A program made the position numbers and the translations under genes. A stretch of DNA of 64,000 nt from an uncultured Bacteroidales bacterium. GTDB lineage: Bacteria; Bacteroidota; Bacteroidia; Bacteroidales; UBA932. The notes beneath the pieces are model-generated. The model did no database searches, had not been told where the DNA came from, and saw only the letters and a program-made list of their open reading frames with translations. The stretch is from assembly GCA_947168065.1 (NCBI GenBank), contig CAMVKH010000001.1, positions 124,001-188,000 on the forward strand. Reading direction: 5' to 3'. Positions 14,218 to 38,135 of this stretch are shown piece after piece; position 1 is the stretch's first letter; each line of letters starts with the position of its first letter.

Positions 14218-14231
14218 ACTAAATAAATTAG
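14218..14231 (+). promoter_or_regulatory. Candidate BlaI operator of module 1
   Basis: ACTAAATAAATTAG, extended on both sides to the palindrome AACTAA-N5-TTAGTT (14217-14233). It overlaps the -33 region of the promoter upstream of the BlaI gene. A version with one base changed sits at the same place upstream of the second BlaI gene (38122-38135). Members of this repressor family usually autoregulate by binding short dyads in their own promoter. Confidence 0.6.
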
Positions 14232-14261
14232 TTGCATATCAAATCTTTTTCGTTATCTTTG
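14232..14261 (+). promoter_or_regulatory. Promoter of module 1 (blaI-M56-barrel)
   Basis: TTG at 14232-14234, 19 bases, then TATCTTTG at 14254-14261. This is a perfect match to the Bacteroidota housekeeping consensus. Initiation would fall near 14267, leaving a leader of about 14 bases that includes AAGGA before the ATG at 14281. The rest of the truB-blaI gap (14088-14216) shows nothing recognisable. Confidence 0.7.
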
Positions 14262-14280
14262 CAGAAAAGCAAGGACCGCT

Positions 14281-14637
14281 ATGCGAAGACTGACGAAAAA
14301 AGAAGAGATCATTATGGAGCGTTTCTGGGAGCGGGGACCGCTGTTCGTGCGCGAACTGCGGGAGACCTATCCCGATCCCAAACCGCATTTCAATACCCTC
14401 TCCACTCAGGTACGTACGCTCGAAGCCGCCGGCTTCCTCGCCCACAAGGCCTATGGACCCACCTACCAGTACCACGCTGCCGTCTCCAGGGAGGAATACC
14501 AGGAATCGTCTCTGTCGGGGCTGGTGGACAAACTCTTCAACAACTCCTATCTCCAAGTGGTCTCCGCCTTCGTCAAGGACGACAAAATCACGGTTGAGGA
14601 GTTGAAGGAACTCATCCAGGAAATCGAAAACCAGTAG
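14281..14637 (+). CDS. BlaI/MecI/CopY-family transcriptional repressor (module 1)
   Basis: The 118-aa protein has an N-terminal winged helix (LTKKEEIIMERFWERG, then VRELRETYPD and FNTLSTQVRTLEAAGFL) and a C-terminal helical dimerisation tail (LSGLVDKLFNNSYLQVVSAF). This is the standard layout and length of BlaI repressors. They hold their operons off until the partner M56 protease causes their cleavage. The M56 gene starts 10 bases downstream. A paralogue is encoded at 37702-38064. Confidence 0.9.
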   Translation: MRRLTKKEEIIMERFWERGPLFVRELRETYPDPKPHFNTLSTQVRTLEAAGFLAHKAYGPTYQYHAAVSREEYQESSLSGLVDKLFNNSYLQVVSAFVKDDKITVEELKELIQEIENQ

Positions 14638-14647
14638 AAGGAAACGG

Positions 14648-15952
14648 ATGACTGCCTTTCTCATTTATCTCCTGAAAGCCACACTGGCAACGACGCTGCT
14701 CTACTTCGTCTATCCCGCGACAATCAAGGGCAGCACCCTGCACGCTGCCGGGCGGGCCTACCTGCTCGGCACAGCGCTGGCCGGATGCCTGCTGCCGCTG
14801 CTGACCCTCACCTTCCACCGGACCCTGCCCCTGAACGAAGTGACGCAGATCTCCGACCTGGTCCCTGCAACTACGGCCGCCATTCCCGCCTTGGAACAGA
14901 TCGGCCTGCCGGCCGGAGGCGGATGGGCCGCCCCGCTCCTTGCCGTCTATCTCGCTGGTGCCCTCTGGCGCGGCGCCCGGCTGCTGGCTTCGCATTACCG
15001 CGTAAGGAAAGCCATCCGCTGCGGTGAGCGGAAAGGGGAAGAAGGCCGGATCACGACGGTACTGGTGGACGACCCGATGGCTCCCTGCAGCTGGATGCAC
15101 TACATCCTCCTTCCCCGAAACGGACACGGGGCGGAAAACGCGCAAATGCTCGCACACGAACGCGCTCACGTCGCCCTCTGCCACAGCGCAGACCTGCTGC
15201 TGGTCGATCTGGTCGCCGTCCTGCAGTGGTTCAACCCCTGCCTCCGACGGTTGCGCGCCGACCTGTGCGCCTTGCACGAATTCCAGGCAGACGAGGCAGT
15301 GCTGCGCGGCGGAGGCAGTCCGAAAGAGTACCAGTACCTTCTTCTTCAGTACAGTGCAGCCGTCCGCGGACTGGCCGTGGCCAACAGCCTTGGCAGCGAC
15401 GAACTCAAGGCACGGATCCGGATGATGTCCCAGCCACGGACGGCAGCCCGGAAACGCTGGCTGCTGCTCTGCGCCCTGCCTGTCCTCTGCCTGATACTTC
15501 TGGTCGGCGCGCGTGTACAAAGCGACGGCTACAATGCCCAGATGCCACCCCTGCTGCTTCTTGACCGGGAATCCATCTCCCTCGACAGGCTGTTGACCTT
15601 GCCGGAACTGGAGGGCGGAAACCTCACGGTCATTTCGCCGGAAGACGCTTCCCGTATCTGCGGACACCGCATACCCGGCGGAATCCTGAACATCACACCC
15701 AAAGCGGAGATACTGGCCGCCGACGGAAAGGTCTCCTTCCGGGCGGTCCCAGGATTCAACCTGGGCGAAAACGGCCAATGCCCGTTGCTGCTGGTCAACG
15801 GCGTGGAATTCCCCTACCAGCGCCGGAAAGAATTCCTGTCGAAGCAATGGAACTGGAAATGGTTCGCTTTCCTGCACGGCGACCAGGCCATTCCGATTTA
15901 CGGAGAAAAGGCCCGCAACGGAGCCTTCCTCCTCAACATAGAACCGCATTAA
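14648..15952 (+). CDS. M56 (BlaR1-type) membrane metallopeptidase with a C-terminal plug-like domain
   Basis: The 434-aa protein has about four hydrophobic N-terminal segments. The zinc-protease motif HERAH (near residue 169) sits before WFNPCLRRLRADLCALHEFQADEAVL, the BlaR1/M56 signature. A further helix near 275-290 is followed by about 140 residues. That tail ends PLLLVNGVEFP and then YGEKARNGAFLLNI, a pattern like the plug of SusC-type receptors (xxVVDGV ... YGxRAxNGVIxV). It is not a penicillin-binding sensor. Established role of the family: signal-dependent cleavage of BlaI. The meaning of the plug-like tail is inferred only. Confidence 0.85.
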   Translation: MTAFLIYLLKATLATTLLYFVYPATIKGSTLHAAGRAYLLGTALAGCLLPLLTLTFHRTLPLNEVTQISDLVPATTAAIPALEQIGLPAGGGWAAPLLAVYLAGALWRGARLLASHYRVRKAIRCGERKGEEGRITTVLVDDPMAPCSWMHYILLPRNGHGAENAQMLAHERAHVALCHSADLLLVDLVAVLQWFNPCLRRLRADLCALHEFQADEAVLRGGGSPKEYQYLLLQYSAAVRGLAVANSLGSDELKARIRMMSQPRTAARKRWLLLCALPVLCLILLVGARVQSDGYNAQMPPLLLLDRESISLDRLLTLPELEGGNLTVISPEDASRICGHRIPGGILNITPKAEILAADGKVSFRAVPGFNLGENGQCPLLLVNGVEFPYQRRKEFLSKQWNWKWFAFLHGDQAIPIYGEKARNGAFLLNIEPH

Positions 15953-15956
15953 TCTT

Positions 15957-16799
15957 ATGGAAACGCGCCTTATCCGCTGCCTGTGCCTGCTGCTTGCGCT
16001 CTTCTCGCTGGTTTCCTGCAAAAAGGACAAGGAGGACCCGTCACTGTACAAGTCCTCCGACGGGAATTACAGCACCACCTTGAAATTGCTCAACGCCAAG
16101 CAAAGTGACATCTATCAATTCAGTTCCAGTCCGGAGGAAGAGAACCGGGATATCCGGAACCTCAACGAGGAACGCCTGCGGCTGGCATGCATCTACGCAT
16201 CCTCCCATCCGGAGGCCCTGAAGATGGTGAAAGACGAGGCCGGAAAGCTCAGCCGGGAAGAGATGCAGGAAGTCTATAACTCGCTGACACCCGCTCTCCA
16301 GAAGACGCAACTGGGCAAGGCAATCAAGGCCTATCCGCTGAAAAAGGGAGTGCTGGCCGGCGATCCGCTGCCGCATTTCGAAGGCTTCGGGCCTGATGGA
16401 AAGCCCTTCGACTGGTCAGTGACCGAAGGGAAACGCGTCCTGCTCATCTATGAGGGATGGGGCTACCTGAAGCGCAGCACGCACTTCTGGTTCAAGGACC
16501 TGCTCGCCGCCACCGACAGGGACAGCCTCGCCGTGGTAGCCTATGTCTATGCCGCTTCCCAGGCGGAACTGCAGAAACGGGTCAAGGCCTTCCAGCTGGA
16601 GCCTTATCTGGTGATTTCCGACCTTCAGGGAAAGGAAGGCCCGCTTGACAAGAAGATGGGCATCAAGGGCATTCCAACCTATTACTATACGGACCGGCAA
16701 GGTCGGGTGCGCCGCGTTATCGCAGGCTTCGACCCCGACCGCTTCACACAGGAAACCGGACTCTCGCCCGCGTGGGGTGAAAGCTGGATTGACGAATAA
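15957..16799 (+). CDS. Thioredoxin-fold lipoprotein lacking the CxxC motif (module 1)
   Basis: The 280-aa protein starts with a signal peptide ending in LFSLVSC, a lipobox, so it is a predicted lipoprotein. The C-terminal half looks like a thioredoxin/TlpA fold: GDPLPHFEGFGPDGKPFDW, a strand VLLIYEGWGYLK where the active-site motif should be, and KGIPTYYYTDRQGRV with the cis-Pro. The WCxxC is replaced by EGWGYLKRS with no Cys, so disulfide chemistry is not expected. It lies 4 bases after the M56 gene and 11 before the barrel gene, a tight operon. A chaperone or adaptor role is possible but unproven. Confidence 0.72.
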   Translation: METRLIRCLCLLLALFSLVSCKKDKEDPSLYKSSDGNYSTTLKLLNAKQSDIYQFSSSPEEENRDIRNLNEERLRLACIYASSHPEALKMVKDEAGKLSREEMQEVYNSLTPALQKTQLGKAIKAYPLKKGVLAGDPLPHFEGFGPDGKPFDWSVTEGKRVLLIYEGWGYLKRSTHFWFKDLLAATDRDSLAVVAYVYAASQAELQKRVKAFQLEPYLVISDLQGKEGPLDKKMGIKGIPTYYYTDRQGRVRRVIAGFDPDRFTQETGLSPAWGESWIDE

Positions 16800-16810
16800 C
16801 CCTGCCAACG

Positions 16811-19759
16811 ATGAAAAGAATCCCCTGCCTGCTACTGCTGCTGCTCTTGGGTCCTCCCGCCCCGGCCCAGATCGTCATCTATGGAAGCTACGGCTCCGAA
16901 CAGGGCAACGTAAAAGTGAAAGTCCTGGAAGAAGGGACGGACGCACCCGTTCCCTATGCATCCGCCTACCTGACGGCCAAGGGCGATACGCTGATCACCA
17001 ATTTCACGCTGACCGACTCGACCGGCGTGGCCAACCTCACCAAAGTGACGCGAGGCACCTACGACCTGACCATCGAGATGCTGGGATACAAGACCTGCCG
17101 GAAGGAACACTACATCTCGTTTTCCTGGGATAAACGGACGGTGGATCTGGGCACGGTCCACCTGGCGCAGGACGCCGAGATGCTGGAGGCCGCACGTGTG
17201 ACGGCCATCGGCAATCCCGTCGAGATCCGGCAGGACACAGTCATCTTCAATGCCTCTTCCTTCATCATCGGACAGAACCAGATGCTGGAAGACCTGCTCA
17301 AGCGGATGCCCGGAATGGACGTTTCCGGCGACGGAACGGTGAAATACAACGGCGAGACGATCCAGAAGATTACGGTCGGCGGAAAGACCTTCTTCTTCGA
17401 CGACCCGAAGATGGCCCTCAAGAACCTGCCCGCCAAGGTCGTGGACAAGGTGAAGGTCATCGACAAGGTGAGCGATTCCGAACAGTTTACGGGCGTGGCC
17501 ACCGACCGCGAAAAAGTAATGGACCTGGAATTCAAGCAGGAATTCAAGGAAGGCTGGTTCGGCAATATCTCGGCCGGGCTCGGCACCACCCTGGCCGGCG
17601 ACCGCAAGGAAGAAATGGTGGACGACCGCGGCCTTCTCTACAACACCAACGGGATGGTTTCGGGCTACAACGAGAAGGACCAGCTTACCGTGGTCGGCAG
17701 TGCTTCCAACGCTCCAATCAGCAACGACGACGTGGTTGTCTTTTATTCCCTGGAAGGTGACCAGACACCTTCCGTCGGCGGCATCCGGACGGAAAGACAA
17801 GCCGGCGCCAACCTCAACACGACGCGGATCAAGAAGATGGAGACCGCCGCAATGGCCAGTTACAACTACAGTTTCAGCGACAGCCGCTCCCGCTCACAGC
17901 GGCAGACCTTCGTCAAGGACGGCAGCGACATCCTCTCGGATGCAGCATCGAAGCGTTTCGCTTCCAACGATGCCTTCAGACTGGGCATTGAGCTCAAGAA
18001 TACTTCGCGCAAGAAATTCCTCTTCAATTTCGAACCCCGCTTCAACTATACACTGAGCCGGACGGAAAGCTACAACGACAACGACGCCCGACAATACGAT
18101 GACGGCTTGCATCTCAACCGTTCTTCTTCGAGCACCTATCTCGAAGCGCGACAGTTCAGCCACAATGCTTCGCTCTCGGCCGGCATCCGGAACCTCGGGA
18201 ATGTCCGCCGCAGCCTGACGCTCAACGGGAGCTGGTCGGTGAGCGACTACAACGCCGACAGCCGGGAATTCTCCGAAACAGTCCTCCGCACAGCGGCCAC
18301 CCCGCAAGTCAAAGATCTTTTCTACGCGACCGACAACCGGACCTTCTCGGGACGGGCCGGACTCTCCTACATCGAGCCGATCGCCAAGTTGTGGGTCCTC
18401 TCCGTCGATGTCAACGGCTATGCGTCGCTGCGCGACAACCGGAAGGATGCATTCAACCGGACCATCGGAACGGCCGGCTTTGATGCGTCCGTCCTGGACA
18501 AAGGGAACTACCGTGAGCGCAACGACTACTACTCGACCTCTATGCGCAACGACTACTATTACCTGCAGGAGATCGTGCAATTCCAGTACAAGAAGGACCG
18601 GACGAGCATCCAACTGGGCTTCCAGTTGCAGGAATCCCTCAACGAGACCCGTTCCCGCTCGCTGGGGCGCGATACCGAGACCGGCATCGGCGAGTGGCTG
18701 CTCGACTGGAGCCCCTATGTCAATATCCGCTGGGGAAAGGCGCAGCACAACTACAGCTTCTTCTACAACGGCCGCTCCAGCCAGCCTTCCAACAGCAATC
18801 TCCTCCCGGTGCTCGACATTTCAGTGCCCACTCGGCAGCGGCTCGGCAACATCTACCTTCAGCCCAGCTTCCGGCAGAATACGAGCCTGAACATCTTCGT
18901 CAGCAATCCCGAGAAGCAATGGAATTACAGTATTTGGGGAAACGTCAGCATCACTTCGCGCGCGACGGTCACCGCCAGTTGGTTCGACGGCAACGGCGTA
19001 CAGTACAGCATCCCTGTCAACTCGGCCAAGCCTTCCGTTTCGCCCAACTTGACCGGGAACCTGGGCGGCCCCCTTTCGGCGGACAAGAAGTTCCGCGTGT
19101 CCTTTTCCCTGAGTTCCGGGGCATCCTGGTCCGTCAGTTACCAGAATACCCGCCGAATAGACGGACCGGATGCCGACAGCTTCGACTACACGGCATTCAT
19201 GGAACAATTCTGGGGCGACCGCTCCGGCAGCCGGTTCTACTCCGGCCAGAGCGGATTCAGCGAAAGCATCACCCGGACATTCAGCGTGAGTCCCTTCCTT
19301 TCCTTCTCCTACCGGGGAGAGAAGATGACGGCCTCCGTCAGCGGCGGGACCTCCTATCGCAGCTCCCACTATTCGCTCGACAGCAGCGCCGACACCCGGA
19401 CCTGGACGAACAACGTGGGCGGCAGTTTTGAATGGACGACGCCGCACCAGTGGGAAATCGCCACCGATGCCCGATATTCTTTCTACAAAGGCTATATCAG
19501 CGGTTTCTACACGCCCTATCTGCGGTGGAACGCCAGCCTGACGAAGAACATCAAGGCCTGGGCCATCAGCGTCCACTTCAACGACATCCTGAACTCCGTG
19601 CGTTCGACCTCGCATACAGTCACTGCCAACTACGTGGAGGACGCGATGCAGAACCAACTCGGCCGCCACATCTACCTCAGCGTAAAATGGAATTTCGGAA
19701 AACTGAACGCCGCCAAGAGCCGCAACGCCACCAGCGCCGCCTACAAGATGCTGCGGTAA
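16811..19759 (+). CDS. Outer-membrane beta-barrel receptor-like protein (module 1)
   Basis: The 982-aa protein has a signal peptide (ends PAPA/QIVI), a carboxypeptidase-regulatory-like Ig domain (residues about 30-115, VKVLEEGTDAPVPYASAYLT), then a plug-like region and a long Asn/Ser/Tyr-rich barrel ending in aromatic-rich strands (HIYLSVKWNFGKLNA). This fits the Bacteroidota outer-membrane beta-barrel family related to TonB-dependent receptors. Residues 174-245 are identical to the paralogue at 32191-35163, while the barrels differ considerably. The substrate is unknown. It is the last gene of the BlaI/M56 operon. Confidence 0.85.
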   Translation: MKRIPCLLLLLLLGPPAPAQIVIYGSYGSEQGNVKVKVLEEGTDAPVPYASAYLTAKGDTLITNFTLTDSTGVANLTKVTRGTYDLTIEMLGYKTCRKEHYISFSWDKRTVDLGTVHLAQDAEMLEAARVTAIGNPVEIRQDTVIFNASSFIIGQNQMLEDLLKRMPGMDVSGDGTVKYNGETIQKITVGGKTFFFDDPKMALKNLPAKVVDKVKVIDKVSDSEQFTGVATDREKVMDLEFKQEFKEGWFGNISAGLGTTLAGDRKEEMVDDRGLLYNTNGMVSGYNEKDQLTVVGSASNAPISNDDVVVFYSLEGDQTPSVGGIRTERQAGANLNTTRIKKMETAAMASYNYSFSDSRSRSQRQTFVKDGSDILSDAASKRFASNDAFRLGIELKNTSRKKFLFNFEPRFNYTLSRTESYNDNDARQYDDGLHLNRSSSSTYLEARQFSHNASLSAGIRNLGNVRRSLTLNGSWSVSDYNADSREFSETVLRTAATPQVKDLFYATDNRTFSGRAGLSYIEPIAKLWVLSVDVNGYASLRDNRKDAFNRTIGTAGFDASVLDKGNYRERNDYYSTSMRNDYYYLQEIVQFQYKKDRTSIQLGFQLQESLNETRSRSLGRDTETGIGEWLLDWSPYVNIRWGKAQHNYSFFYNGRSSQPSNSNLLPVLDISVPTRQRLGNIYLQPSFRQNTSLNIFVSNPEKQWNYSIWGNVSITSRATVTASWFDGNGVQYSIPVNSAKPSVSPNLTGNLGGPLSADKKFRVSFSLSSGASWSVSYQNTRRIDGPDADSFDYTAFMEQFWGDRSGSRFYSGQSGFSESITRTFSVSPFLSFSYRGEKMTASVSGGTSYRSSHYSLDSSADTRTWTNNVGGSFEWTTPHQWEIATDARYSFYKGYISGFYTPYLRWNASLTKNIKAWAISVHFNDILNSVRSTSHTVTANYVEDAMQNQLGRHIYLSVKWNFGKLNAAKSRNATSAAYKMLR

Positions 19760-23959: not shown

Positions 23960-23999
23960 TCGCGAAACGGACGAAACAAATGAATCATCCGTTTCGCGA
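23960..23999. repeat. REP-like palindrome (family shared with 27570-27609)
   Basis: Perfect 12-bp arms (TCGCGAAACGGA at 23960-23971 and TCCGTTTCGCGA at 23988-23999) flank a 16-base loop containing ATGAATCA. It sits between two convergent genes and could act as a bidirectional terminator. The right arm encodes the last residues and stop codon of the - strand lipoprotein gene. The same core recurs at 27570-27609 and, in reverse complement, inside the direct repeats at 41037-41187 and 42301-42451. Confidence 0.75.
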
Positions 24000-27634: not shown

Positions 27635-28624
27635 TCATGATTGTCCGAATAACTGATCGGCATACTCGTAGAATTCTTCGCTTTCACCCACCATAATCTT
27701 GTTGATTTTGCCTTCGGGATCGATGACGATCTTGGTGGGATATCCCGGAATTCCATAAATGCGAGCGATGTCATCCTCTTTGCTGTTGTAGACGTGAAGC
27801 CACGGTAGTGCATATTTCTCAACGGCATCTTTCCATTCTTCCTCGGTATCACGACAATCAATGCCAACGATTTCAAACTTTCCGGCACATTTCTCATAGT
27901 AGGCTTTCATCTTGGGAAAGCCCTTGAGGCACCAGCCGCACCAGGAGCCCCAGAAGTCGAGTATGATCCACTTGCCACGGAGGGTTGACAACGTTAACGG
28001 CTTTCCTTTCAAGTCAGGCAGGGTAAAGTCCGGGGCCATGGCGCCTTCTACGACCTCCTTGCCAATCAGATTCTTTTGTGCCTGTCGCAATAATGCATCC
28101 GCAATGGGCTTCAGTCGTCCGTTTCTGACTTTCGGATCGATGGCGTTGATGGCGGTTTCCATCTGTTCCGGTTCGAGACCGTAGAGCAGGGCCATGGACA
28201 CTTCCGACTTCGGATGAGCAAGGATATAGTCAAGTGCGTTTTCCTCTTCATCTGCTACCAGGGCATACTCCCGATAAAAACGGCTGCCACTCATCTGATA
28301 ATCGCCAAAACGCCCCCGCAGGACGACTTCTTCTCCTGCGATTGCCGGAAAACCGATATAGTCAGCGTAATCGGCACTTCTGATTGTCACGAAATAGGGA
28401 TTGTCCACAGGGAGGAACAAATCTAGATGACCATCCACAGCAGGATAAAACTTAAGTACAGGCGGCCATGAGCCGTATTCGAGCGTCATAAAGGCTACGC
28501 TGTCTTTCAATCCATCGAGGATGGCGTCGATATGCACGGCTTCTTTCTTGACCTGGCTGGACTGGCAACTGGCCAAAGTGAAGCCTAACGAAAGAACCAA
28601 TACAAAAAGAGTTATTCTTTTCAT
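27635..28624 (-). CDS. TlpA-family thiol-disulfide oxidoreductase lipoprotein
   Basis: The 329-aa protein has a lipobox signal peptide (LGFTLASC) and an N-terminal DUF4369-like beta domain (residues about 28-120). A helical linker leads to a C-terminal thioredoxin domain with APDFTLPDLKGKPLTL, WIILDFWGSWCGWCLKGFP (active WCGWC) and YGIPGYPTKIVIDPEG. Proteins of this kind reduce periplasmic disulfides or serve redox relays. A small ExbB-like gene lies 14 bases upstream on the same strand. Confidence 0.86.
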   Translation of the reverse strand: MKRITLFVLVLSLGFTLASCQSSQVKKEAVHIDAILDGLKDSVAFMTLEYGSWPPVLKFYPAVDGHLDLFLPVDNPYFVTIRSADYADYIGFPAIAGEEVVLRGRFGDYQMSGSRFYREYALVADEEENALDYILAHPKSEVSMALLYGLEPEQMETAINAIDPKVRNGRLKPIADALLRQAQKNLIGKEVVEGAMAPDFTLPDLKGKPLTLSTLRGKWIILDFWGSWCGWCLKGFPKMKAYYEKCAGKFEIVGIDCRDTEEEWKDAVEKYALPWLHVYNSKEDDIARIYGIPGYPTKIVIDPEGKINKIMVGESEEFYEYADQLFGQS

Positions 28625-29179: not shown

Positions 29180-29905
29180 ATGAAGAGGCCCCTGATTGTC
29201 ATCATCGCCTGGTTGCTTGCCATCCTGCTCATTGCAGCAATGGTGGTCAGCATGGATTTCTCTTTCCCTGAAGCTTTGCTCATCAGCGTGACGTTTCTTC
29301 CCGGCGCTCTGACGGCTCGCTTTTTTTTCTCTAAAATTTCTTTCGAAAACCGAAGGGAAGGCATCATCAATGCTTGTTTCGTTTTCCTCGCCATCCTGGT
29401 GGTGGAAACAGCTTTGGTCTTGGCTGCGGACTTGTATATCCTCTGGCTACGAGAACATACGCACGGGCTTTTCAACATCGTTGATGGCAAGCAGTTTCCT
29501 AATACCCTTTTTAACCCCATTTTTATCTCTCTCATCCTGACGCTGCTGCTTGTCGGCGACTGGGCCCTGGCTCGCCTGCTGGAAAAGCGGTTTCCGGCCG
29601 CGAAGGAGCCGGTCCGATTCATCTCGGAGAGGAAGCCCGTCAGCCTGCTGCCGGAAGAAATCCTTTTTATTGAGTCGAATGACAAGGAAGTGACTGTATT
29701 CGCGACTGGAGGACGCCGGTTCCGGAACAGGACTGGCATCGCCCAGTGGGAGTCGCTGCTGGGTCCTGACTTCGTGCGCATTCACCGCTCCTATCTCGTC
29801 CAACGCTCCGCCATCTCACAAATCGGTGCCGACTCGCTCATCGCGGCCGGCACCTCACTTCCCATCTCCCGCAAGTATCGGGAATCGGTTCAATCGCTGC
29901 GCTGA
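29180..29905 (+). CDS. LytTR-family regulator with an N-terminal membrane domain
   Basis: The 241-aa protein begins with four hydrophobic helices (about residues 5-25, 32-52, 65-88 and 108-130). It ends with a LytTR DNA-binding domain: VSLLPEEILFIESNDKEV, RFRNRTGIAQWESLLGPDF, VRIHRSYLVQRSAI and PISRKYRESV. There is no receiver domain, so it is a membrane-anchored one-component regulator. It is divergent from the ExbB-like/TlpA operon, a possible target. Confidence 0.86.
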   Translation: MKRPLIVIIAWLLAILLIAAMVVSMDFSFPEALLISVTFLPGALTARFFFSKISFENRREGIINACFVFLAILVVETALVLAADLYILWLREHTHGLFNIVDGKQFPNTLFNPIFISLILTLLLVGDWALARLLEKRFPAAKEPVRFISERKPVSLLPEEILFIESNDKEVTVFATGGRRFRNRTGIAQWESLLGPDFVRIHRSYLVQRSAISQIGADSLIAAGTSLPISRKYRESVQSLR

Positions 29906-29920: not shown

Positions 29921-31054
29921 CTAGTGCAGATGCTGCTGCAGGTATTCGTCGAATTCGTCGAGATTGTGGTGGCCCTGAAGGACGATTTCGCCCTGGGGGT
30001 CGAGGAGGAAGAAATGCGGGACACCCTCAATCTGGAGGCGGTTACAGAGGACGCCCTCCAGGTCGAAAAGCTGGTCGTAATCAATCTTCAGTTCGGCAAT
30101 GGCTGCCAGCGAGCTCTCCGGTTGGTCCTGGACCGTGATGCCTATCACCTTCAGACCTTTCCCGGCGTATTTGTCGTTCAGACGGATGACATTTGGAATC
30201 TCTTCCCGGCAAGGTGCGCACCAGCTTCCCCAGAAGTCGAGCATGACATACTGCCCCTGCCCCGTCACCTCCTCAAAACGAGCGACTGCTTGACATTCCT
30301 CCCGCGACACCACGCTGCCACCGGGACCGACGGTAACCCATTCCGCTTTACCGTCTTCCTGGTTTTCAGCGTCCCTGTAGGTCATTATCATGGCAATGGT
30401 CGGATCCTCCCGGATACAGTCGCCGCCAAGCGCAATCATCTCTTTCAGCTCTTCGTAAGGAGCCGAGAAGGCCCATAAGATCATGGTCTGGACACCCACA
30501 GCATCGTCGGGATGGGCAAGATAATATACGCGCAGCACGGAATCCAGCCTTTGGCGTGAACGGTTGGAGAGTTCTTCCATTTTCTGCGCATCCCCCGCTT
30601 CGGAGGCCGCTATCATTTCATCCATCTCCGGGCCTGGCCCTTCCATAATCTGGTACGTCTCCTTGATCAGGTTGTTCATCGCGGAAGTCAGCGGACTTCC
30701 GGAAGCCGTATGATTGTCGAAATCGACTGTCATTTTACGGGTATCGGCCACGATCTCCATCATGTCGAAAAGGCCGCCGTCGCCCACCTCGGCACCCGTC
30801 GCGTCGATAAAACGGATCCGCTGCTGGACGCGCGGATCCCGCCGCGTCCGGAGCGTATAGGCCCCGTCCACGACCTGACACGTATCTACATCGCTGCCGC
30901 CGCACACGAGAATGGCATAATATGTCTGGTCCGGATCCGGCACGGTGACTGTACCCTGGATGGTGCAGAGCTTCTCGGAAGCGCATGCCCCCACGAAAAG
31001 AAGCACGGACGAAAGGATCAGGAAGCCTGCCACCCTAGAAGCTTTATCTTTCAT
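29921..31054 (-). CDS. TlpA-family thioredoxin-fold lipoprotein
   Basis: The ORF is open to 31096, but the ATG at 31054 gives a lipobox signal peptide (SSVLLFVGAC) and 377 aa. A beta-rich N-terminal domain (TIQGTVTVPDPDQTYYAIL) and a helical middle are followed by a thioredoxin domain. The active site is VMLDFWGSWCAPCREEIP, with IEGVPHFFLLDPQGEI near the end. It is the third TlpA-like lipoprotein within 7 kb. The operon is monocistronic. On the - strand a -7 box TAACTTTG lies at 31089-31082. Confidence 0.86.
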   Translation of the reverse strand: MKDKASRVAGFLILSSVLLFVGACASEKLCTIQGTVTVPDPDQTYYAILVCGGSDVDTCQVVDGAYTLRTRRDPRVQQRIRFIDATGAEVGDGGLFDMMEIVADTRKMTVDFDNHTASGSPLTSAMNNLIKETYQIMEGPGPEMDEMIAASEAGDAQKMEELSNRSRQRLDSVLRVYYLAHPDDAVGVQTMILWAFSAPYEELKEMIALGGDCIREDPTIAMIMTYRDAENQEDGKAEWVTVGPGGSVVSREECQAVARFEEVTGQGQYVMLDFWGSWCAPCREEIPNVIRLNDKYAGKGLKVIGITVQDQPESSLAAIAELKIDYDQLFDLEGVLCNRLQIEGVPHFFLLDPQGEIVLQGHHNLDEFDEYLQQHLH

Positions 31055-31081
31055 GATAATGGGTTTAATGGTTTTCCTTTG

Positions 31082-31089
31082 CAAAGTTA
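31082..31089 (-). promoter_or_regulatory. -7 element of the TlpA-like gene at 29921-31054
   Basis: TAACTTTG on the - strand, 27 bases before the ATG at 31054. Between this and the divergent promoter lies a perfect dyad CCGTTCC-G-GGAACGG (31143-31157), a candidate operator for either gene. Confidence 0.5.
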
Positions 31090-31162
31090 CACACAAAAGT
31101 CCTATCCGCCAAAGTTAAAACCCTCTGTGGCCGTGTTGAATCCCGTTCCGGGAACGGAATCC

Positions 31163-31244: not shown

Positions 31245-32150
31245 ATGAAATCTCTTACCCTAATCCTGGCCCTCACGATGGCCAGTCTGACGATTGCCGG
31301 CTGCGGATCGCCGGAGCAGCAGTATGTAAAAAAAGCCGTCAAGCTGATGGATCGCAAATGCCTGTTTGCCGAAGGGCCTGCCTGGGAAGAGGCGAAGGCC
31401 AAGGCGCTGGCGGCCAGGCCGGCCACAAAGGAGGAGGCCTATGAGGTCACCCGAGAGGCTTTGAAAGTAGCCGGCGGAAAGCACTCCTTCATCTTTACGG
31501 TAGAAAGGCAGGAAGAGAGTGCGGCCGAGGATAAGGTGACAGAGCCTTCCGTAAAGCCTTGTGGAGACGGCATCCTGCTGATTACACTGCCGGCATTCAG
31601 CGGCCAGACAAAAGACGAGAACCTGCGCTATGCCCACACGGTACTCGATGCCCTGCCGGAGGCCAGCACGCCGGAGGCTGAAAGCCTGAAAGGCGTCGTC
31701 ATCGACCTGCGTGGCAACACGGGCGGCAATATGTATCCGATGATCGCGGCCGTTCACCGTTTCTTGCCCGATGACTCTATCCTGCGCTTCAAGAGCCGCA
31801 AGTTCACGATGCCCGTGACGAAAGAGTTTGTCCTGCGGAACGTCGGCATCGAGGCTGGAACCGCCCTCACTTGCCCTGTCGCGCTGCTGACCGATGATTG
31901 GACAGGCAGTTCCGGTGAAGCTACTCTCCTCTGTTTCAGAGGATTGGAGAATGCTCGCACTTTCGGCGCACCCACAGCCGGCTATGCTTCGGCCAATTCG
32001 CCTTTCCCGATGCCCGACGGCTCGAAACTCGTGTTGACAATCAGCTGCGACATGGCCCGCACGGGTGAAATCTTCTGCGACGATCCCATCGAACCCGACG
32101 TACCAACAAACCACCCCCTGGAAGAAGCCTTGACCTGGCTCCAACGATAG
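31245..32150 (+). CDS. S41-family peptidase lipoprotein (NSR-like)
   Basis: The 301-aa protein has a lipobox signal peptide (MASLTIAGC) and an S41 protease fold: GGKHSFIF near residue 81, GVVIDLRGNTGGNMYPMIAA, DDWTGSSGEATLL, and FGAPTAGYAS. The His of GGKHSF and the Ser of SSGE match the catalytic dyad described for nisin-resistance protease NSR. The Lys of C-terminal processing proteases is absent at the TAGYAS position. It lacks a PDZ domain. It may cleave a small peptide at the cell surface; the substrate is unknown. Confidence 0.75.
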   Translation: MKSLTLILALTMASLTIAGCGSPEQQYVKKAVKLMDRKCLFAEGPAWEEAKAKALAARPATKEEAYEVTREALKVAGGKHSFIFTVERQEESAAEDKVTEPSVKPCGDGILLITLPAFSGQTKDENLRYAHTVLDALPEASTPEAESLKGVVIDLRGNTGGNMYPMIAAVHRFLPDDSILRFKSRKFTMPVTKEFVLRNVGIEAGTALTCPVALLTDDWTGSSGEATLLCFRGLENARTFGAPTAGYASANSPFPMPDGSKLVLTISCDMARTGEIFCDDPIEPDVPTNHPLEEALTWLQR

Positions 32151-32190: not shown

Positions 32191-35163
32191 TTAGAACATC
32201 ATGTTCAGCGCTGCCCGGCTGGCCTTTTGGCTCTGGGTGGCGTTGAGCTTGCCGAAATTCCACTTGAAGGTGATGAAGAAGTGGCGACCCAACTGGTTGT
32301 ACATCGAATCCTCGATATAGTTGTCGGTCGTGATGTGCCGCGTGGTACGCGTACTGTTGAGAATATCGTTCACGTGGAAACCGATGGAGAACTGCTTGAT
32401 ATTCTTGCTCATTTCGAAATTCCACAACAGGTACGGTTCGTTGTAACCGGAGGGGAAACCCTTGAAGAAGTTGTACTCGACTTCCGTACTCAGTTCCCAG
32501 CCGTTCTTCGACGACCAATCGCCATCGAAATAAACGCCGCTGCTCCAGGTTTTCGTGTCCGCCGCACTGTCGAGGGAATAATGGGCCGAACGGTAATTGG
32601 TCCCTCCGTACAGGCTTGCCGTAATCGTTTCTCCCCGATAACTCAAACCGACGTTCGGAGCGAGCGACAGGCTGTTGGTGACGCTTTCGCTGAACCCGCT
32701 CTGCCCCGAAAAGAAACGGCTGCCGCTGCTATCTCCCCAGAAGTCCTCCATGAACCGGTTGTAGTTGAAGGTTTCCACGTCGAGGCCGTCCAGCCGCCTT
32801 GTGTTCTGGTAGCTGATGGACCGGCTGTCCGTTGCAGAGAAACCAGTCCGCAGACTCAGTTTCTTGTCCTGTGTCAAGGCAATACGACCATTGAGAAACG
32901 CCGAGACCGATACAGCGGGCTTCGCGGAATTGACGGGGATGCTGTACTGGATGCCGTCGTCATCGAACCAGCTGGCCATCACCGTCTGCCGCTGGATCAA
33001 GGATGATGTCAGGTACAAGTTCAGATTATGCTGTTTCTGCGGATTGTTGAGATAGATGCTGCCCGTTGCGGAATGGCTGTAGGAAGGTTTCAGGTAGATG
33101 TTACCCATCTGGAGGCGCGTAGGGACGGCTATGTCAAGCACAGGCATCTGCCGCGCGGCTGAAGGCCGGGAAGAACGGCCATTGTAGGAAAAATCGAAGC
33201 TGTTCTGCTTCTTCATCCAACGGAAGTTCAGATACGGGCTCCAGTCCAGCAGCCACTCGCCGATACCGGTTTCGGTATCGCGGCCCAGCGACCGGGCGCG
33301 CATCTCGTTGAGCGTCTCCTGCATCTGGGCGCCGAGCTGTACGGAAGTCTGGTCCTTCCTGTACTGGAATTGAACCGTCTCATTGAAATAGATGTACTTG
33401 TTCTTCGTGAAAGTAGAATAGTAGTCATTCTTCCGGGTATAGTTGTCCTTGTCGATGACCGAGGGGTCGAAACCGGGCGTTCCGGCGGTCCGGTCGAAGG
33501 CATCCTTGCCGTTGTTGCGCCAGGAGCCAAAGCTGCTCAGATCGACCGACAGGATCCACCGTTCAGCGAGCGGCTCGTTATAGGACAGACGGAACTGACC
33601 GCTGTAATTGCGATTGTCCGTCCGGTAGAAAAGGTCGCGTGTAATGGGATCCGACGCTGCCTGCAGGTAGGTCTGCGAGAACTCACGGCTGCCGGCATCG
33701 TAGTCCGTCAGGTTGTAGTAACCGTTCAGCGTGACGCTCCGGCGCTTGTTGCCGCCGAGTTCCTTGATACCGAAACTCAAATTCGCGTTGTGGGAGAACT
33801 GACGGGATTCGGCGTAATTGCTCGACGAAGCCTGATTGAGGCGCTGCCCGCCTGCCACCTGGACGGATTCGTTGTCATTGTAGCCTTCCGTCCTGCCGCC
33901 GGCATAGCGGACGGTCGGGGAAAAACTGAACAGGTATTTCTTGCGGTTCGTGTTCTTGAGTTCGAAGTTCAACTTGACGTTGTCGTTCGTCACAAAGTTC
34001 TTGCTCTCGGTCCCGGTGAAAATGTCACTGCCGCCGCTGACGAAAGTCGTCCGCTTCGAACGGCCGCGAGAGTCGTTGAAAGAATGGTTGTAGTTGGCTG
34101 CCGCCGTGCTCTCCAGCCCCTTGATGCGCGTCGTGTTGTAGTTCGCGCCTGCCTGTCCATAGGTCTGGATGCCGCCGCCGAGGCCGCCGCCGAGGATGAC
34201 CCGGCTATCCTCTTCTTCGATGTTCCGGAAAACGATGACACCCTTTTCATCGGAAATCGGCGCGTTGTAAGCGCCGCCCACCAGCGTGACCTGGTCCTTT
34301 TCGTTATATCCGGAAGCCATCACGTTGCCCGTATAGAGGAAACCGCGGTTGTCGATCATCTCGTCCTTGCGGTCACCGGCCACCGTCGTTCCGGCACCTA
34401 CGGTAGCGTTTCCGAACCAGCCCTTCTGGAACTCCTGCTTGAATTCCAGGTCCATCACTTTCTCCCGGTCGGTGGCCACGCCGGTGAACTGTTCGGAGTC
34501 GCTCACCTTGTCGATGACTTTCACCTTGTCAACGACCTTGGCGGGCAGGTTCTTGAGAGCCATCTTCGGATCATCGAAGAAGAAGGTCTTGCCGCCCACG
34601 GTAATCTTCTGGATTGTCTCGCCATTGTATTTCACGGTGCCGTCTTTCGACACCTCCATACCCGGCATCCGCTTGAGCAGGTCTTCCAGCATCTGGTTCT
34701 GCCCTACCTGGAAGGATGATGCATTGAAGATGATGGTATCCTGCCTGATCTCGATCGGATTGCCGATGGCCGACACATGCGCGGCATCGAGCATCTGTGC
34801 ATCCTCGGCGAGCCGGATGACCCCCAGGTCCACCGAATCCCTGTCCCAGTCGAACGAGAAATAGTGCTCTTTGTTGTAGGTCTTGTAGCCCAACATCTCG
34901 ACAGTGAGCACGTAGGTACCGCGCGTCACTTTCGTGATGCGGGCGACACCAGACGTGTCGGTCAGTGCAAAGTTGGTGATCAGCGTATCGTTTTTGGCTG
35001 TCAGATAGGCAGAGGCATAAGGCACAGGAGCCTCCGTCTTCTCTTCCAGGACTTTGACGAGGACGGACCCCTGATTTCTTTCGAAAAGGCCGCCGGGAAT
35101 GAACTGCGCCCGCGCCGATACCGCGGCAATCAAGCAGAACAGGATGGCAAAGAATCGTTTCAT
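32191..35163 (-). CDS. Outer-membrane beta-barrel receptor-like protein (module 2)
   Basis: The 990-aa paralogue of the barrel at 16811-19759. It has a signal peptide (AAVSARA/QFIPGG), an Ig-like regulatory domain (VKVLEEKTEAPVPYASAYLT), a plug-like region and a long barrel ending HFFITFKWNFGKLNA. A 72-residue stretch (34429-34644) is identical to module 1, although the codons differ at scattered third positions. Many barrel segments are alike (RSLGRDTETGIGEWLLDWSP) but others diverge. It is the last gene of the second BlaI/M56 operon, 45 bases after the TPR gene. Confidence 0.85.
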   Translation of the reverse strand: MKRFFAILFCLIAAVSARAQFIPGGLFERNQGSVLVKVLEEKTEAPVPYASAYLTAKNDTLITNFALTDTSGVARITKVTRGTYVLTVEMLGYKTYNKEHYFSFDWDRDSVDLGVIRLAEDAQMLDAAHVSAIGNPIEIRQDTIIFNASSFQVGQNQMLEDLLKRMPGMEVSKDGTVKYNGETIQKITVGGKTFFFDDPKMALKNLPAKVVDKVKVIDKVSDSEQFTGVATDREKVMDLEFKQEFQKGWFGNATVGAGTTVAGDRKDEMIDNRGFLYTGNVMASGYNEKDQVTLVGGAYNAPISDEKGVIVFRNIEEEDSRVILGGGLGGGIQTYGQAGANYNTTRIKGLESTAAANYNHSFNDSRGRSKRTTFVSGGSDIFTGTESKNFVTNDNVKLNFELKNTNRKKYLFSFSPTVRYAGGRTEGYNDNESVQVAGGQRLNQASSSNYAESRQFSHNANLSFGIKELGGNKRRSVTLNGYYNLTDYDAGSREFSQTYLQAASDPITRDLFYRTDNRNYSGQFRLSYNEPLAERWILSVDLSSFGSWRNNGKDAFDRTAGTPGFDPSVIDKDNYTRKNDYYSTFTKNKYIYFNETVQFQYRKDQTSVQLGAQMQETLNEMRARSLGRDTETGIGEWLLDWSPYLNFRWMKKQNSFDFSYNGRSSRPSAARQMPVLDIAVPTRLQMGNIYLKPSYSHSATGSIYLNNPQKQHNLNLYLTSSLIQRQTVMASWFDDDGIQYSIPVNSAKPAVSVSAFLNGRIALTQDKKLSLRTGFSATDSRSISYQNTRRLDGLDVETFNYNRFMEDFWGDSSGSRFFSGQSGFSESVTNSLSLAPNVGLSYRGETITASLYGGTNYRSAHYSLDSAADTKTWSSGVYFDGDWSSKNGWELSTEVEYNFFKGFPSGYNEPYLLWNFEMSKNIKQFSIGFHVNDILNSTRTTRHITTDNYIEDSMYNQLGRHFFITFKWNFGKLNATQSQKASRAALNMMF

Positions 35164-35208: not shown

Positions 35209-36402
35209 CTATTTCTCTTCCATAAAAAGCTCTCCTTTGATGTACTCGATGCTCTTTTTTGCGAATTCATAGCCACGGGAGCCGGGGCGGGCGACTCTGA
35301 GATACTTTTCGTAGTATTCGAGCGCCTGTTTGTACTTTTTCTGGCGCTCGTAGCAATACGCGATGGTCGAGAGTGCCTGGATGAAAGAGGGATTGTGGCG
35401 GTAAGCTTCCTGATAGTGTTCGATAGCCTTGTCGAACTGTTCCCGGCCATAGTAGCCCGTTCCGTACTGCTGATGGATGCGGGAGACCAGCGCAGAATCG
35501 GGCTGGATCATGGTCTCTGCCTTTTCGAGCCAGGGCTTGACGGTTTTTTCGAAGGACCGGTACATCTCGGTCTCGACGGCGGCGATGGCCCAGGCCAGGT
35601 TGGCGTCGGACGAGTCGAGGGCCCAGGCTTTCAGCAGTTCCCTCTCCGCCTCGTACGTGACATTCGTGTGCCAATAGCTTTGGCCGAGATAATAGTGCAG
35701 CGGATAATTGTCGGCGCCCAGTTTCTCCAGCCGCTCGAAAACGACAGTAGCGGAATCGTACTGCGCACTCAGATAGTATGCCAACCCCCGGATGGGCGCC
35801 ACGGTGAAATTGTCGGGATCCATTGCCAGATAATCGCCCGTCATCGACAGGACGCCGTCGTAGTCCTTGGCGGTGAGCAGCAGGTTGGCCGCCTTGCTGA
35901 CGACTGCTTCGTTCCGGGGCTTGAGGGCCAGCGCCTGCCGGTAGCAGACCAGTGCAGAGTCGGCAAGGCCCGCCAGATTGTAGGCATCCCCTACCAGTGC
36001 CGCCACGGCAGGAATCGAGTCTTGCTGCAGAATCTCCCGTCCCTTCTCCGCTGTCGTGTGATAATCCTTCATCCGGTAGGCCAGTTGCATCTGTCTGATC
36101 TGGTAGAACAGATTCCCCGGTTCGTGGAGCGAAAGCAACTGGTAGGTGCCTGCCGCCGTCTCATAGTCGCCATTGGTGAAGTGGCAGTCCGCCAGCTCGG
36201 AGAGCACCTCCTCATCGAAGACGCCAGGCGTCACCAGCCCCGAGAGCCGCTCGATGGCCGCATCCGTCTTGTAGATGCTTTTCAGGTAGCGGGCTTCCGT
36301 GAGCGCTGCGCGGCGCGCCAGCGAATCCGCCGGCTGCGCCGCCGCCGCGCCGGATAGCAGCGCAGCGGCCACCACGGCCAGCGACAGGACAAGCGATTTC
36401 AT
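35209..36402 (-). CDS. Tetratricopeptide-repeat periplasmic protein (module 2)
   Basis: The 397-aa protein has a signal peptide (ALLSGAAAA/QPADS) and repeats of about 34 residues throughout. Examples are LSELADCHFTNGDYETAAGT, ADSALVCYRQALALKPRN, GREQFDKAIEHYQEAYRHNP and KKYKQALEYYEKYLRV. TPR arrays are protein-binding scaffolds. It starts 1 base after the M56 stop, so translation is coupled. It takes the position that the thioredoxin-like lipoprotein holds in module 1. Confidence 0.85.
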   Translation of the reverse strand: MKSLVLSLAVVAAALLSGAAAAQPADSLARRAALTEARYLKSIYKTDAAIERLSGLVTPGVFDEEVLSELADCHFTNGDYETAAGTYQLLSLHEPGNLFYQIRQMQLAYRMKDYHTTAEKGREILQQDSIPAVAALVGDAYNLAGLADSALVCYRQALALKPRNEAVVSKAANLLLTAKDYDGVLSMTGDYLAMDPDNFTVAPIRGLAYYLSAQYDSATVVFERLEKLGADNYPLHYYLGQSYWHTNVTYEAERELLKAWALDSSDANLAWAIAAVETEMYRSFEKTVKPWLEKAETMIQPDSALVSRIHQQYGTGYYGREQFDKAIEHYQEAYRHNPSFIQALSTIAYCYERQKKYKQALEYYEKYLRVARPGSRGYEFAKKSIEYIKGELFMEEK

Positions 36403-36403
36403 A

Positions 36404-37705
36404 CTACTTCAATTGAAAGACGACCGGAAAGTTATAGACGACGCGGACGGGCTTGCCATCAATTTTGCCGGGTTCCCATTTCGGAGACTGGCTGACCACT
36501 TTCTGGGCTTCGGCGTCGAGGATCGGATGGACGCCTCTGAGGACACGGACGCCGGTGACGCTGCCGTCCTGCTCGACGGTGAACTGCAGGGTTACCCGAC
36601 CTTGCACACAAAGGTCTTTCGCTTCCTCCGGATAATGGAGATGTTCGTTCACCCAATGGGAGAAACGATTGGCGTCACCCCCATCGAACTGGGGCTTGGC
36701 CTCGACCAACGCAAAGGGAACCGCCTTGTCGGCTTCCGATTCGCTGACATTTTCAGCAGCGGGCTCATCCGTAACGATCACGGAGTAGGGATTATCTGGA
36801 ACAGCTTCTTCCGAAGCAGGAATCTCTTCCTGCGGGGAAGCGCTGCATTCGGCCAGCAGAAGCATCGTGCCTGCCAGCAGGGGTAAGAGGAGCAGCAGGA
36901 AGAGTTTTTTCCAGGCTGCTTTCGTAGGAGTCTGCATCATCGTAATACGGTTTTTGAGTTGGGCGTGATTGAAGCCGTTGGCCAGGAGGAAACGCTTTTC
37001 CCCCACGGCTTTTTTCACGAGTAATAATTGGTATTGCGTTGCATCGATGCCTTGATTGAGGACGAAGTCGTCGGCTTCGTATTCGTGGAGCAGCTTCAGT
37101 TCGCTGCGGCAGATCCACACCAGCGGATTGAACCACTGCAAGACGGTCAGTGCCGAAGAGAGAAGCAGGTCCATGGAATGGCCGTAGCGGACGTGCGCCC
37201 GCTCGTGCGTAAGGATGGCGGGATAGCGCTCGTAGTCATTCCGCCCGAGGACGATATGCCGCAGCCAGCTGAAAGAGGGGGCTTCCCGCGGCACAAGATG
37301 GAGGATATATCCGTCACGCCGTTCCCCGGGCGTGCGCCGGAGGAGGCGGAACATGCTGCCGTAAGAACGGATGTAAAGACCAAGCGTCACGAGCACTCCG
37401 GCCAGATAGAGCAGGAGTACGACAGCCTGCCAGGAGGGCAGCAAGCCGCCGGCAGCCCCGGCAGCAGAAGGTTCAGCGCCTTGTCCGGCAGCCACCACCA
37501 CCGGTTCCAGCCACTCCGAATACAAGGTCGGCCGGTTCACCCGGAAGCGGATCAGCGGCAACAGCAGGCAGACCGCGCTTCCGGCCAGCAGCGTGATGCG
37601 GTTGAAACGGAAATGCCCGTCCCGCCGCATCACCAGCAGGAAGAATGCGTCGAACACCGCCAGCAGCAGCGTCGCTTTCAACAGGTATGTCAGGAAAGCA
37701 CTCAT
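36404..37705 (-). CDS. M56 (BlaR1-type) membrane metallopeptidase fused to a TonB C-terminal domain
   Basis: The 433-aa protein has N-terminal membrane helices, the zinc motif HERAH (near residue 170) followed by WFNPLVWICRSELKLLHEYEADDFVL, a further helix near 275-295, an acidic periplasmic linker, and a TonB-type C-terminal domain. That domain reads YPEEAKDLCVQGRVTLQFTV, GSVTGVRVLRGVHPILDAEA and WEPGKIDGKPV. The domain pairing suggests that the protease directly contacts or energises an outer-membrane partner. It overlaps the BlaI stop by 4 bases (ATGA). Confidence 0.9.
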   Translation of the reverse strand: MSAFLTYLLKATLLLAVFDAFFLLVMRRDGHFRFNRITLLAGSAVCLLLPLIRFRVNRPTLYSEWLEPVVVAAGQGAEPSAAGAAGGLLPSWQAVVLLLYLAGVLVTLGLYIRSYGSMFRLLRRTPGERRDGYILHLVPREAPSFSWLRHIVLGRNDYERYPAILTHERAHVRYGHSMDLLLSSALTVLQWFNPLVWICRSELKLLHEYEADDFVLNQGIDATQYQLLLVKKAVGEKRFLLANGFNHAQLKNRITMMQTPTKAAWKKLFLLLLLPLLAGTMLLLAECSASPQEEIPASEEAVPDNPYSVIVTDEPAAENVSESEADKAVPFALVEAKPQFDGGDANRFSHWVNEHLHYPEEAKDLCVQGRVTLQFTVEQDGSVTGVRVLRGVHPILDAEAQKVVSQSPKWEPGKIDGKPVRVVYNFPVVFQLK

Positions 37706-38064
37706 TTCCGGCCGTTTTCTATCTGGGAGATCAGGGCTTTGAGTTCGTCGAGGTCCATTTTCTCTTCCTCCACGAAGCGCGACACCACGCTCGCGTAGGA
37801 ATTGTCGTAGAATTTTTCGACGGTGTCAGAAATCACGAGGTCGGCGAAATCCCGTTCACTCACGACGGCGTGGTAGCGATAGGCGTTGGCGAACTTCTCG
37901 CGGGCCACGTAGCCCTTCTCTTCCAGAAAGCCCACCTGCGTGGCAACAGTGTTATAATGCGGTTTCGGATCCGGGAAATGCTTCAGCAGGTCCTGGATGA
38001 ACATCGGCCCATAGGCCCAGAACATCCGGAGGATTTCATCTTCTTTGGCAGTCAGTTTTTCCAT
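37702..38064 (-). CDS. BlaI/MecI/CopY-family transcriptional repressor (module 2)
   Basis: The 120-aa protein starts at the ATG at 38064, equivalent to the start of the module 1 repressor; a GTG at 38079 would add five residues. The winged helix reads LTAKEDEILRMFWAYGPMF, LLKHFPDPKPHYNTVATQVG and FLEEKGYVAREKF, followed by the helical dimerisation tail DTVEKFYDNSYASVVSRFVE. It resembles the 14281 paralogue over its whole length, including HFNT/HYNT in the recognition region. It is the first gene of the operon. Confidence 0.9.
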   Translation of the reverse strand: MEKLTAKEDEILRMFWAYGPMFIQDLLKHFPDPKPHYNTVATQVGFLEEKGYVAREKFANAYRYHAVVSERDFADLVISDTVEKFYDNSYASVVSRFVEEEKMDLDELKALISQIENGRK

Positions 38065-38094
38065 TTTTTGGGAGTTCACGGAGTTTTCTCACTG

Positions 38095-38102
38095 CAAAGA
38101 TA
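38095..38102 (-). promoter_or_regulatory. -7 element of module 2
   Basis: TATCTTTG on the - strand, 30 bases before the ATG at 38064, identical to the -7 box of module 1. It lies 19 bases downstream of the candidate operator at 38122-38135, whose TTAG end takes the place of the -33 TTG. Confidence 0.65.
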
Positions 38103-38121
38103 ATGCATTATTCTTTATTTC

Positions 38122-38135
38122 CTAATTTTTTTAGT
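38122..38135 (-). promoter_or_regulatory. Candidate BlaI operator of module 2
   Basis: ACTAAAAAAATTAG read on the - strand, one base different from the module 1 operator (ACTAAATAAATTAG at 14218-14231). It occupies the same place over the -33 element of a blaI promoter. No other copy was seen in the window by eye. Confidence 0.6.

Follow-up and report, generated by a model that had tools for sequence, protein, structure and literature searches.

In the BlaR1/BlaI system, a membrane protein with a cytoplasmic-facing protease and an extracellular sensor C-terminal to its membrane part cleaves the BlaI repressor directly (PMC9834060, in the part available), and in the FecA/FecR system the state of an outer-membrane receptor is signalled to a promoter through periplasmic contact and proteolysis (PMC9249621, also in part). 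Here we describe two gene modules in a stretch of 64,000 nucleotides (the window; positions 124,001 to 188,000 of contig CAMVKH010000001.1, assembly GCA_947168065.1) from an uncultured Bacteroidales bacterium of the lineage UBA932. Each module encodes a BlaI-type repressor, an M56 metallopeptidase, a third protein and a large outer-membrane barrel, and on balance each is probably an inducible, self-regulated receptor-barrel operon, controlled by a BlaR1/BlaI-type relay with a part of the Ton machine borrowed as its sensor. The regulation of the barrel by BlaI is well supported by the sequences compared; the sensing step is what we infer.

The likeness to BlaR1/BlaI and MecR1/MecI of staphylococci consists of a BlaI-type repressor, an M56 protease with HExxH motif, and a region at the outer face past the last membrane helix. 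Unlike BlaR1 and MecR1, the M56 proteins of this genome have tails that are TonB-, plug- or ExbD-like, with no penicillin-binding sensor found, and their predicted cargo is an outer-membrane receptor; the candidate operators are of the CTAA-N5-TTAG type, whereas BlaI/MecI operators of staphylococci are of the TACA-N2-TGTA type. With FecA/FecR/FecI and FpvA/FpvR the modules would share the relay of receptor state to promoter by periplasmic contact and proteolysis, but they would cut a repressor rather than an anti-sigma factor, and their barrel has a CarboxypepD_reg-like N-terminus. No sigma/anti-sigma pair is present among the module genes (BlaI, M56, redoxin or TPR, barrel), and signalling of that kind was rejected for this reason. 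SusCD and RagAB have the layout of CarboxypepD_reg, plug and barrel that is also predicted for the window barrels, but the latter belong to the OMP_b-brl_3 family, are linked to BlaI and M56, and have no SusD-like gene in the module.

Candidate operators of the modules and of other barrel genes

The order BlaI, M56, third gene and large barrel, in two modules facing each other, was noticed in a preliminary description of the window and agrees with Pfam and with the open frames, each of the eight genes having one at the position reported there. The modules and their candidate control sites are as follows.

14214..14239, + strand: operator-like site upstream of BlaI m1, dyad AACTAA-N5-TTAGTT, score 36.5
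14253..14261, + strand: putative promoter -7 box TTATCTTTG of module 1, presumably of the Bacteroidota TAnnTTTG type
14281..14637, + strand: BlaI/MecI-type repressor m1, Pfam Penicillinase_R 1.7e-25, in a clade with BlaI b
14648..15952, + strand: M56 metallopeptidase m1, HERAH, tail of two tandem plug-half-like repeats, Pfam Peptidase_M56 1.6e-10
15957..16799, + strand: redoxin-like lipoprotein without CXXC, third gene of module 1, Pfam Redoxin 2e-4 (below cut-off)
16811..19759, + strand: TonB-dependent-receptor-like barrel m1, Pfam OMP_b-brl_3 9e-16
32191..35163, - strand: TonB-dependent-receptor-like barrel m2, Pfam OMP_b-brl_3 1e-15
35209..36402, - strand: TPR protein, third gene of module 2, found after BlaI-M56 in the genus and at one locus of another genus
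36404..37705, - strand: M56 metallopeptidase m2, HERAH, C-terminal TonB domain, Pfam M56 2.5e-12, TonB_C 8e-20
37702..38064 from ATG (GTG at 38079), - strand: BlaI/MecI-type repressor m2, Pfam Penicillinase_R 1.8e-25, in a clade apart from m1
38095..38103, - strand: putative promoter -7 box TTATCTTTG of module 2
38114..38139, - strand: operator-like site of BlaI m2, dyad CTACTAA-N5-TTAGGA, score 37.1

The modules span 14281-19759 (+) and 38079-32191 (-) and converge, with barrels of approximately 985 amino acids. The barrel ends are separated by 12,431 bp, in keeping with the 12.4 kb first estimated; between the M56 genes there are 20,451 bp, where that estimate gave about 18 kb. Both BlaI proteins contain the Penicillinase_R winged-helix domain of Pfam (90 bits, cut-off 22.6). 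The third genes, which had been regarded as a shared accessory envelope protein, are different: the redoxin-like lipoprotein of module 1 and the TPR protein of module 2 have no meaningful similarity.

Most BlaI genes have a dyad-like site some 36-72 bp ahead of their start, on the upstream side of a TAnnTTTG box, which we take to be the promoter -7 motif of Bacteroidota; in both modules the site lies beside the promoter of the BlaI operon, of which the barrel is the last gene. Half-sites, searched for after inspection of the sequences, differ by BlaI type: the right half is TTAGGA in 25 of 31 regions upstream of m2/a-type BlaI and TAGTTG in 10 of 11 upstream of m1/b-type BlaI, and the left half is AACTAA in 6 of 7 m1-type regions and variable in the m2/a type (CTCCTAA, CTCCGAA, CTTAA). 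Three of the six m2/a regions without the half-site (L019, L054, L069) belong to operons with a barrel ahead of BlaI. In the 2.02-Mb source assembly, only two places match a tightened m2-type pattern when up to one mismatch is allowed, one before BlaI m2 and one before BlaI a, compared with 21 places for the reversed control, and the m1-type pattern at the same stringency occurs once on both strands, at the m1 promoter. A longer m2 pattern with two mismatches was discarded as noise: among the matches listed it was found in 40 of 40 genomes of the genus (seven times in the source genome), with controls mostly higher. The sequence TACANNTGTA, which we take to be the canonical, typical rather than defining, core of BlaI operators, is absent from the window and from the listed regions upstream of BlaI.

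Matrices trained on the BlaI upstream regions were then run on barrel transcription units. A score of at least 20 is reached by 8 of 15 units that do not start with BlaI and by 2 of 307 control genes from these loci, and the barrel is therefore very probably cargo of BlaI as judged from its upstream sequences. The 15 units were picked by hand, one place per genome locus, and the threshold of 20 was fixed after the scores had been seen; the lowest positive is L128 (20.7), and related loci inflate the significance of the 8 in 15. The control set began as 334 upstream regions (13 scoring at least 20, 22 at least 14) and was reduced to 307 by removal of those up to 700 bp from the start of a module gene; barrels cut at contig ends (G015, G033 C71) fall outside the comparison. 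The positives are three lone barrels (L013, L128, L129), three redoxin-barrel pairs (L014, L015, L029), the barrel of L017, which stands behind BlaI and redoxin with an upstream gap of its own (and is counted also among the 11 contiguous genomes below), and L019, where the order is site, barrel, BlaI, M56, TPR, and BlaI itself lacks one. Tandem sites, with 21 bp between the two, are present in L013, L014 and L128; some lone units of relatives are thus doubly equipped. At L017 (2405-6795; also L043), a BlaI of m1 type is followed by redoxin and by a barrel with an m2-type site, and the M56 gene is absent, leaving a repressor without a linked protease.

These sites, together with linkage across the genus and at 6 of 16 loci of other genera, take the early suggestion that the cargo is an outer-membrane receptor-type barrel beyond gene order. 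The further suggestion that the two modules may act together is not supported: their operator classes differ, and sites scoring at least 20 are found in the window only at the two BlaI promoters.

Ton-type tails and receptor-like barrels

Four M56 proteins are encoded by the source genome: m1 and m2 of the window, and M56 a and b from elsewhere. HExxH (as HERAH or HEKAH) and a downstream HExxAD are intact in all four, and the key residues of both motifs are invariant in a 59-member M56 alignment; there are three to four hydrophobic segments in each, the last within 268-303, and the M56 of module 2 matches BlaR1 (8exp) with a phmmer value of 1.8e-4. The four are not classed as BlaR1 because none has a Pfam match to a penicillin-binding (transpeptidase-like) sensor domain; all of them end in predicted periplasmic parts of the Ton machine. 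The TonB_C tail of M56 m2 is 69% identical over 105 residues to the free TonB of the genome, and a quick tree, at a weak support of 83, places it with free TonB of the genus and some M56 tails of the family, not with those of other families. In Pfam, both M56 a and M56 b exceed the cut-off for ExbD (1.2e-6 and 1.1e-7), and their blastp matches to ExbD-like frames of L013 and L015, the frames being identified by eye, reach 6e-14. The tail of M56 m1 consists of two repeats that resemble plug halves; in hhalign these reach 78.6% and 95.2%, with scores well above those of 100 column shuffles for each, and the template comprised 11 segments, 3 taken from receptor-type frames and 8 from M56 tails picked by eye.

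The M56 b lineage varies by species: that of G014 has plug and TonB_C (Plug 0.0015, below cut-off; TonB_C above it), and those of G026 (TonB_C by Pfam) and G024 (by eye and similarity) have TonB_C with a region that resembles the ExbD part of M56 b. One lineage thus carries ExbD, TonB with an ExbD-like part, or plug with TonB, and on the tentative broader reading given below the reading head would have been swapped among the parts of one machine. Ton-type tails are also present on 7 of 7 M56 proteins adjoining barrels in other genera, three of them ExbD-like and four with TonB_C above the cut-off, three of these four also having a plug trace below it (0.0045-0.14).

The wider phylum was sampled as 59 M56 loci with mechanical gene calling, comprising 55 of the 58 same-class matches outside the source genome (three close neighbours being left out) and 4 from other classes. 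BlaI adjoins M56 in 59 of 59. The Pfam counts are 20 for TonB_C, 8 for Plug, 0 for ExbD, 2 for Amidase_3, 1 for Peptidase_M23 and 1 for POTRA. Tails recognised by eye as cell-wall amidase (L154, L185), M23 peptidase (L180) and POTRA (L157) are other exchangeable heads on the same protease. The M56-TonB_C and M56-Plug proteins of Bacteroidota thus have the domain combinations of the modules, with BlaI alongside; the source genome goes beyond them in its ExbD tails and in the barrel cargo and operators. A literature search found no functional account of either kind of protein in Bacteroidota. A table in the available part of PMC10470040 contains a BlaI gene of P. gingivalis, with a value of -1.74 in a hemin comparison, next in number to an M56 gene; the available part of PMC12578637, consisting of strain-growth and cloning methods and reference text, contains no such system; and M56 and BlaR are absent from the text of PMC12204202.

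The predicted model of the barrel resembles TonB-dependent receptors best, with a plug and a large transmembrane barrel, and the fold alignments of several receptors start at barrel residues 162-185. Both barrels have CarboxypepD_reg domains under the Pfam cut-offs, and phmmer against PDB gave just short matches, to YehD and an allergen. Barrels m1 and m2 are nearly identical in the plug region and divergent in the barrel part, on account of which they probably have a common periplasmic partner and different ligands.

Linkage, copy number and history

A barrel match of at least 52% identity is present in 18 of 40 genomes of the genus, including one fragment at a contig end (G015). The comparison of one-copy and two-copy strains that the preliminary description had proposed gives two or more matches in 7 of the 18 (G000, G006, G010, G017, G022, G033, G035) and one in the others, many assemblies being fragmentary. 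An m2-type M56 match of at least 60% accompanies the barrel in 18 of 18 genomes (some partial or split) and occurs in 1 of the 22 others (G025), uncorrected for genome kinship; relatives of M56 m1 (at least 43%) are found in 6 genomes. Of the 18 genomes, 11 have a barrel contiguous with BlaI (G000, G006, G010, G015, G017, G022, G024, G033, G035, G037, G038) and 6 a barrel with its own site (G016, G018, G020, G026, G034, G036). Convergent barrel pairs are also found in G022 and G033, and a tandem pair in G035. Among plasmids, tblastn with the barrel gave distant matches only (28 records, all below 60% identity).

Within the family, 22 of 119 genomes have the barrel at E 1e-135 or better, 16 of these belonging to other genera; 16 loci were taken from 15 of the 16 (G191 was left out and G205 contributed two). 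M56 adjoins the barrel at six of these loci: as BlaI-M56-barrel in L207, L208, L209 and L212, as BlaI-M56-TPR-barrel in L216 (site score 43), and as M56-barrel at a contig edge in L220. The BlaI units of L207-L209 have m1-type sites scoring 25-27, and that of L212 a weak one (23.7). In the phylum sample, a barrel of the module family is in the same gene run as M56 at 1 of 59 loci and elsewhere in the stretch at 3 more. BlaI-M56-barrel linkage is therefore not confined to a single genus of the family, and it is rare in the phylum sample; the search for this gene order in other genomes had been put forward as a check, and a phylum-wide arrangement was rejected.

Pairwise identity between the modules is 62% for the barrels (989 columns, far beyond chance), 45% for the BlaI proteins and 36% for the M56 proteins, the last over 276 columns of the protease part only. 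The preliminary description derived both modules from one duplicated ancestor and proposed trees of BlaI, M56 and barrel; these have no common history, the outcome it had itself set against a duplication, and only the barrels are each other's closest paralogues within the genome. BlaI m1 groups with BlaI b, from another locus of the same genome, apart from m2 and a (support 100/100, retained after addition of family members), and in the M56 tree m1 joins b and a, with m2 separate (100/99, with a program warning of long branches there). The m2-type barrel clade mixes barrels located behind TPR, behind redoxin and standing alone, and the closest relative of the window m1 barrel outside the pair of record UBA3290 is the barrel of G035, located behind a BlaI m2-M56-TPR unit; along the barrel tree the upstream partner switches between TPR and redoxin at least 4 times, or at least 11 if "none" and "another barrel" are counted as states. 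Duplication of a whole module was rejected on these trees and on the unrelated third genes. Since the regulator units and the barrels follow different trees, the modules are better described as two separate regulator units drawing on one shared, duplicated and reshuffled pool of barrels.

The M56 m2 gene of L029 (18112-19385) and the barrel of L126 (3926-6822) are each frame-broken, by decay or assembly error; the M56 pieces were kept as they are, and only the longer piece of the L126 barrel, from G033, entered the barrel tree, the barrel being left out of the fold alignment. Two further BlaI-M56 pairs of the source genome, L011 (C1:35.2 kb) and L012 (C1:66.1 kb), lie on the same contig, are ExbD-tailed and have no such barrel in the 11.5 kb read. 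At L123 (G010) and L124 (G033), a BlaI-M56 unit with a TonB_C tail on a short linker has, downstream on the same strand, a barrel of another subfamily (25-26%). A third, distant barrel of the source genome (L008, C2:225801-228584; 31%), with matches of similar identity in many genomes of the genus, has frames resembling a Holliday-junction resolvase and a pseudouridine synthase as neighbours, identified by eye, and no BlaI in the stretch read.

Proposed switch and genomic surroundings

In the switch that we propose, BlaI bound at the dyad would hold the operon low. The TonB tail of module 2 would dock on TonB boxes of receptors, and the plug-like tail of module 1 would act as a decoy receptor for TonB; engagement of a ligand-loaded receptor would then move the tail and activate the cytoplasmic-facing M56 protease, which would cut BlaI and induce both barrel and sensor. 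The two modules would be separate switches with separate operator classes. A broader claim, that such proteins form a distinct class of trans-envelope signalling, in which BlaR1-like proteases with an exchangeable Ton piece (TonB C-terminus, receptor plug or ExbD) read Ton engagement and control receptor supply by cutting a repressor, is put forward only tentatively and is by our estimate more doubtful than not. Gut and rumen Bacteroidales have many TonB-dependent receptors, and to our knowledge a means of matching receptor supply to Ton capacity, beyond SusCD-type and sigma/anti-sigma control, is not generally known. If real, a repressor-protease pair with a Ton-made sensor would let the energy-transducing machine feed back directly on receptor genes, and it would point to a role for the phylum's M56-TonB and M56-Plug proteins (20 and 8 of the 59 sampled); given the operator sites, the regulation can be tested in vitro on purified BlaI.

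Several results weigh against this switch, or against a strict one-to-one form of it. Seven of the 15 barrel units have no recognisable site, and the barrel of G007 has neither a BlaI operon nor a site; four b-type BlaI lack the left half and have one half of the m1/b dyad only; and the m1 pattern with one mismatch, found in 23 of 40 genomes of the genus, has controls with counts of similar magnitude and is by itself unspecific. No M56 is present in the stretch read at 10 of the 16 barrel loci of other genera, and the barrel is absent from directly behind 58 of 59 phylum M56 although TonB_C and Plug tails are common there, so that a tail does not require barrel cargo. Profile support for the plug-like tail is weak: M56 m1 has no Pfam Plug match, and the AlphaFold2 model of its tail is poor (pLDDT 43, 5 sequences) and was not used. 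The barrels have no Pfam Plug match either. The ExbD-like tails of L207-L209 are below the cut-off (Pfam 0.013-0.023). In the fold comparison, some barrels without TonB dependence score nearly as high as the receptors (CymA 14.8, Mtr complex 14.0, OmpG 13.8).

Some of these results would suit a reading in which BlaI controls the barrel, the M56 tail senses envelope stress or the state of peptidoglycan, and Ton parts are periplasmic spacers or anchors. The variety of Bacteroidota tails (TonB_C, Plug, Amidase_3, M23, POTRA) and the finding of such a barrel directly behind only 1 of 59 M56 genes speak for it, but Ton-like parts on 4 of 4 M56 of the source genome and 7 of 7 adjoining barrels in other genera, and a module 2 tail close enough to free TonB to suggest a kept binding face, make it rather unlikely, if the most credible of the alternatives. 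That BlaI and the barrel are chance neighbours is very improbable: frequent reshuffling of gene order, the many phylum BlaI-M56 pairs without such a barrel and the seven site-less units are set against sites before eight barrel units outside BlaI-headed operons, the m2 M56 in all 18 barrel genomes and the recurrence of linkage in other genera. Slightly more improbable still is that M56-TonB serves to energise the barrel as its own second TonB, the protease being incidental. It would account for a strong TonB domain beside a TonB-dependent-receptor-like fold, but not for protease motifs intact in all four M56 and invariant across the alignment, nor for the pairing with BlaI in 59 of 59 loci; the M56 core stands in place of the N-terminus of TonB, the motor-binding part, and Plug and ExbD tails would not be expected to energise a receptor. 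Least probable is a classical beta-lactam or copper response, which family membership of BlaI and M56 would favour and which was rejected: the four M56 have no penicillin-binding domain listed, the module genes include neither a beta-lactamase nor a copper transporter, and the TACANNTGTA operator is absent from the window.

The source genome is an incomplete assembly of 17 contigs, 77% complete. The closest named record is UBA3290 (Bacteroidales bacterium), in which both barrels are 98% identical to those of the window; many related records come from herbivore rumen, omasum, reticulum or cecum, the remainder being metagenome-assembled genomes without a named source. Between the two modules are three thioredoxin/TlpA-like proteins with CXXC, all on the - strand (23985-25625, 27635-28624 and 29921-31096), as well as a LytTR regulator (29180-29905) and an S41 peptidase (31245-32150). 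The window also contains a SusC/SusD pair (46288-51371). In L019 and L020, frames of 1063 and 614 amino acids, of sizes like SusC and SusD, are located near the barrel, and the larger has a nearly identical plug segment.

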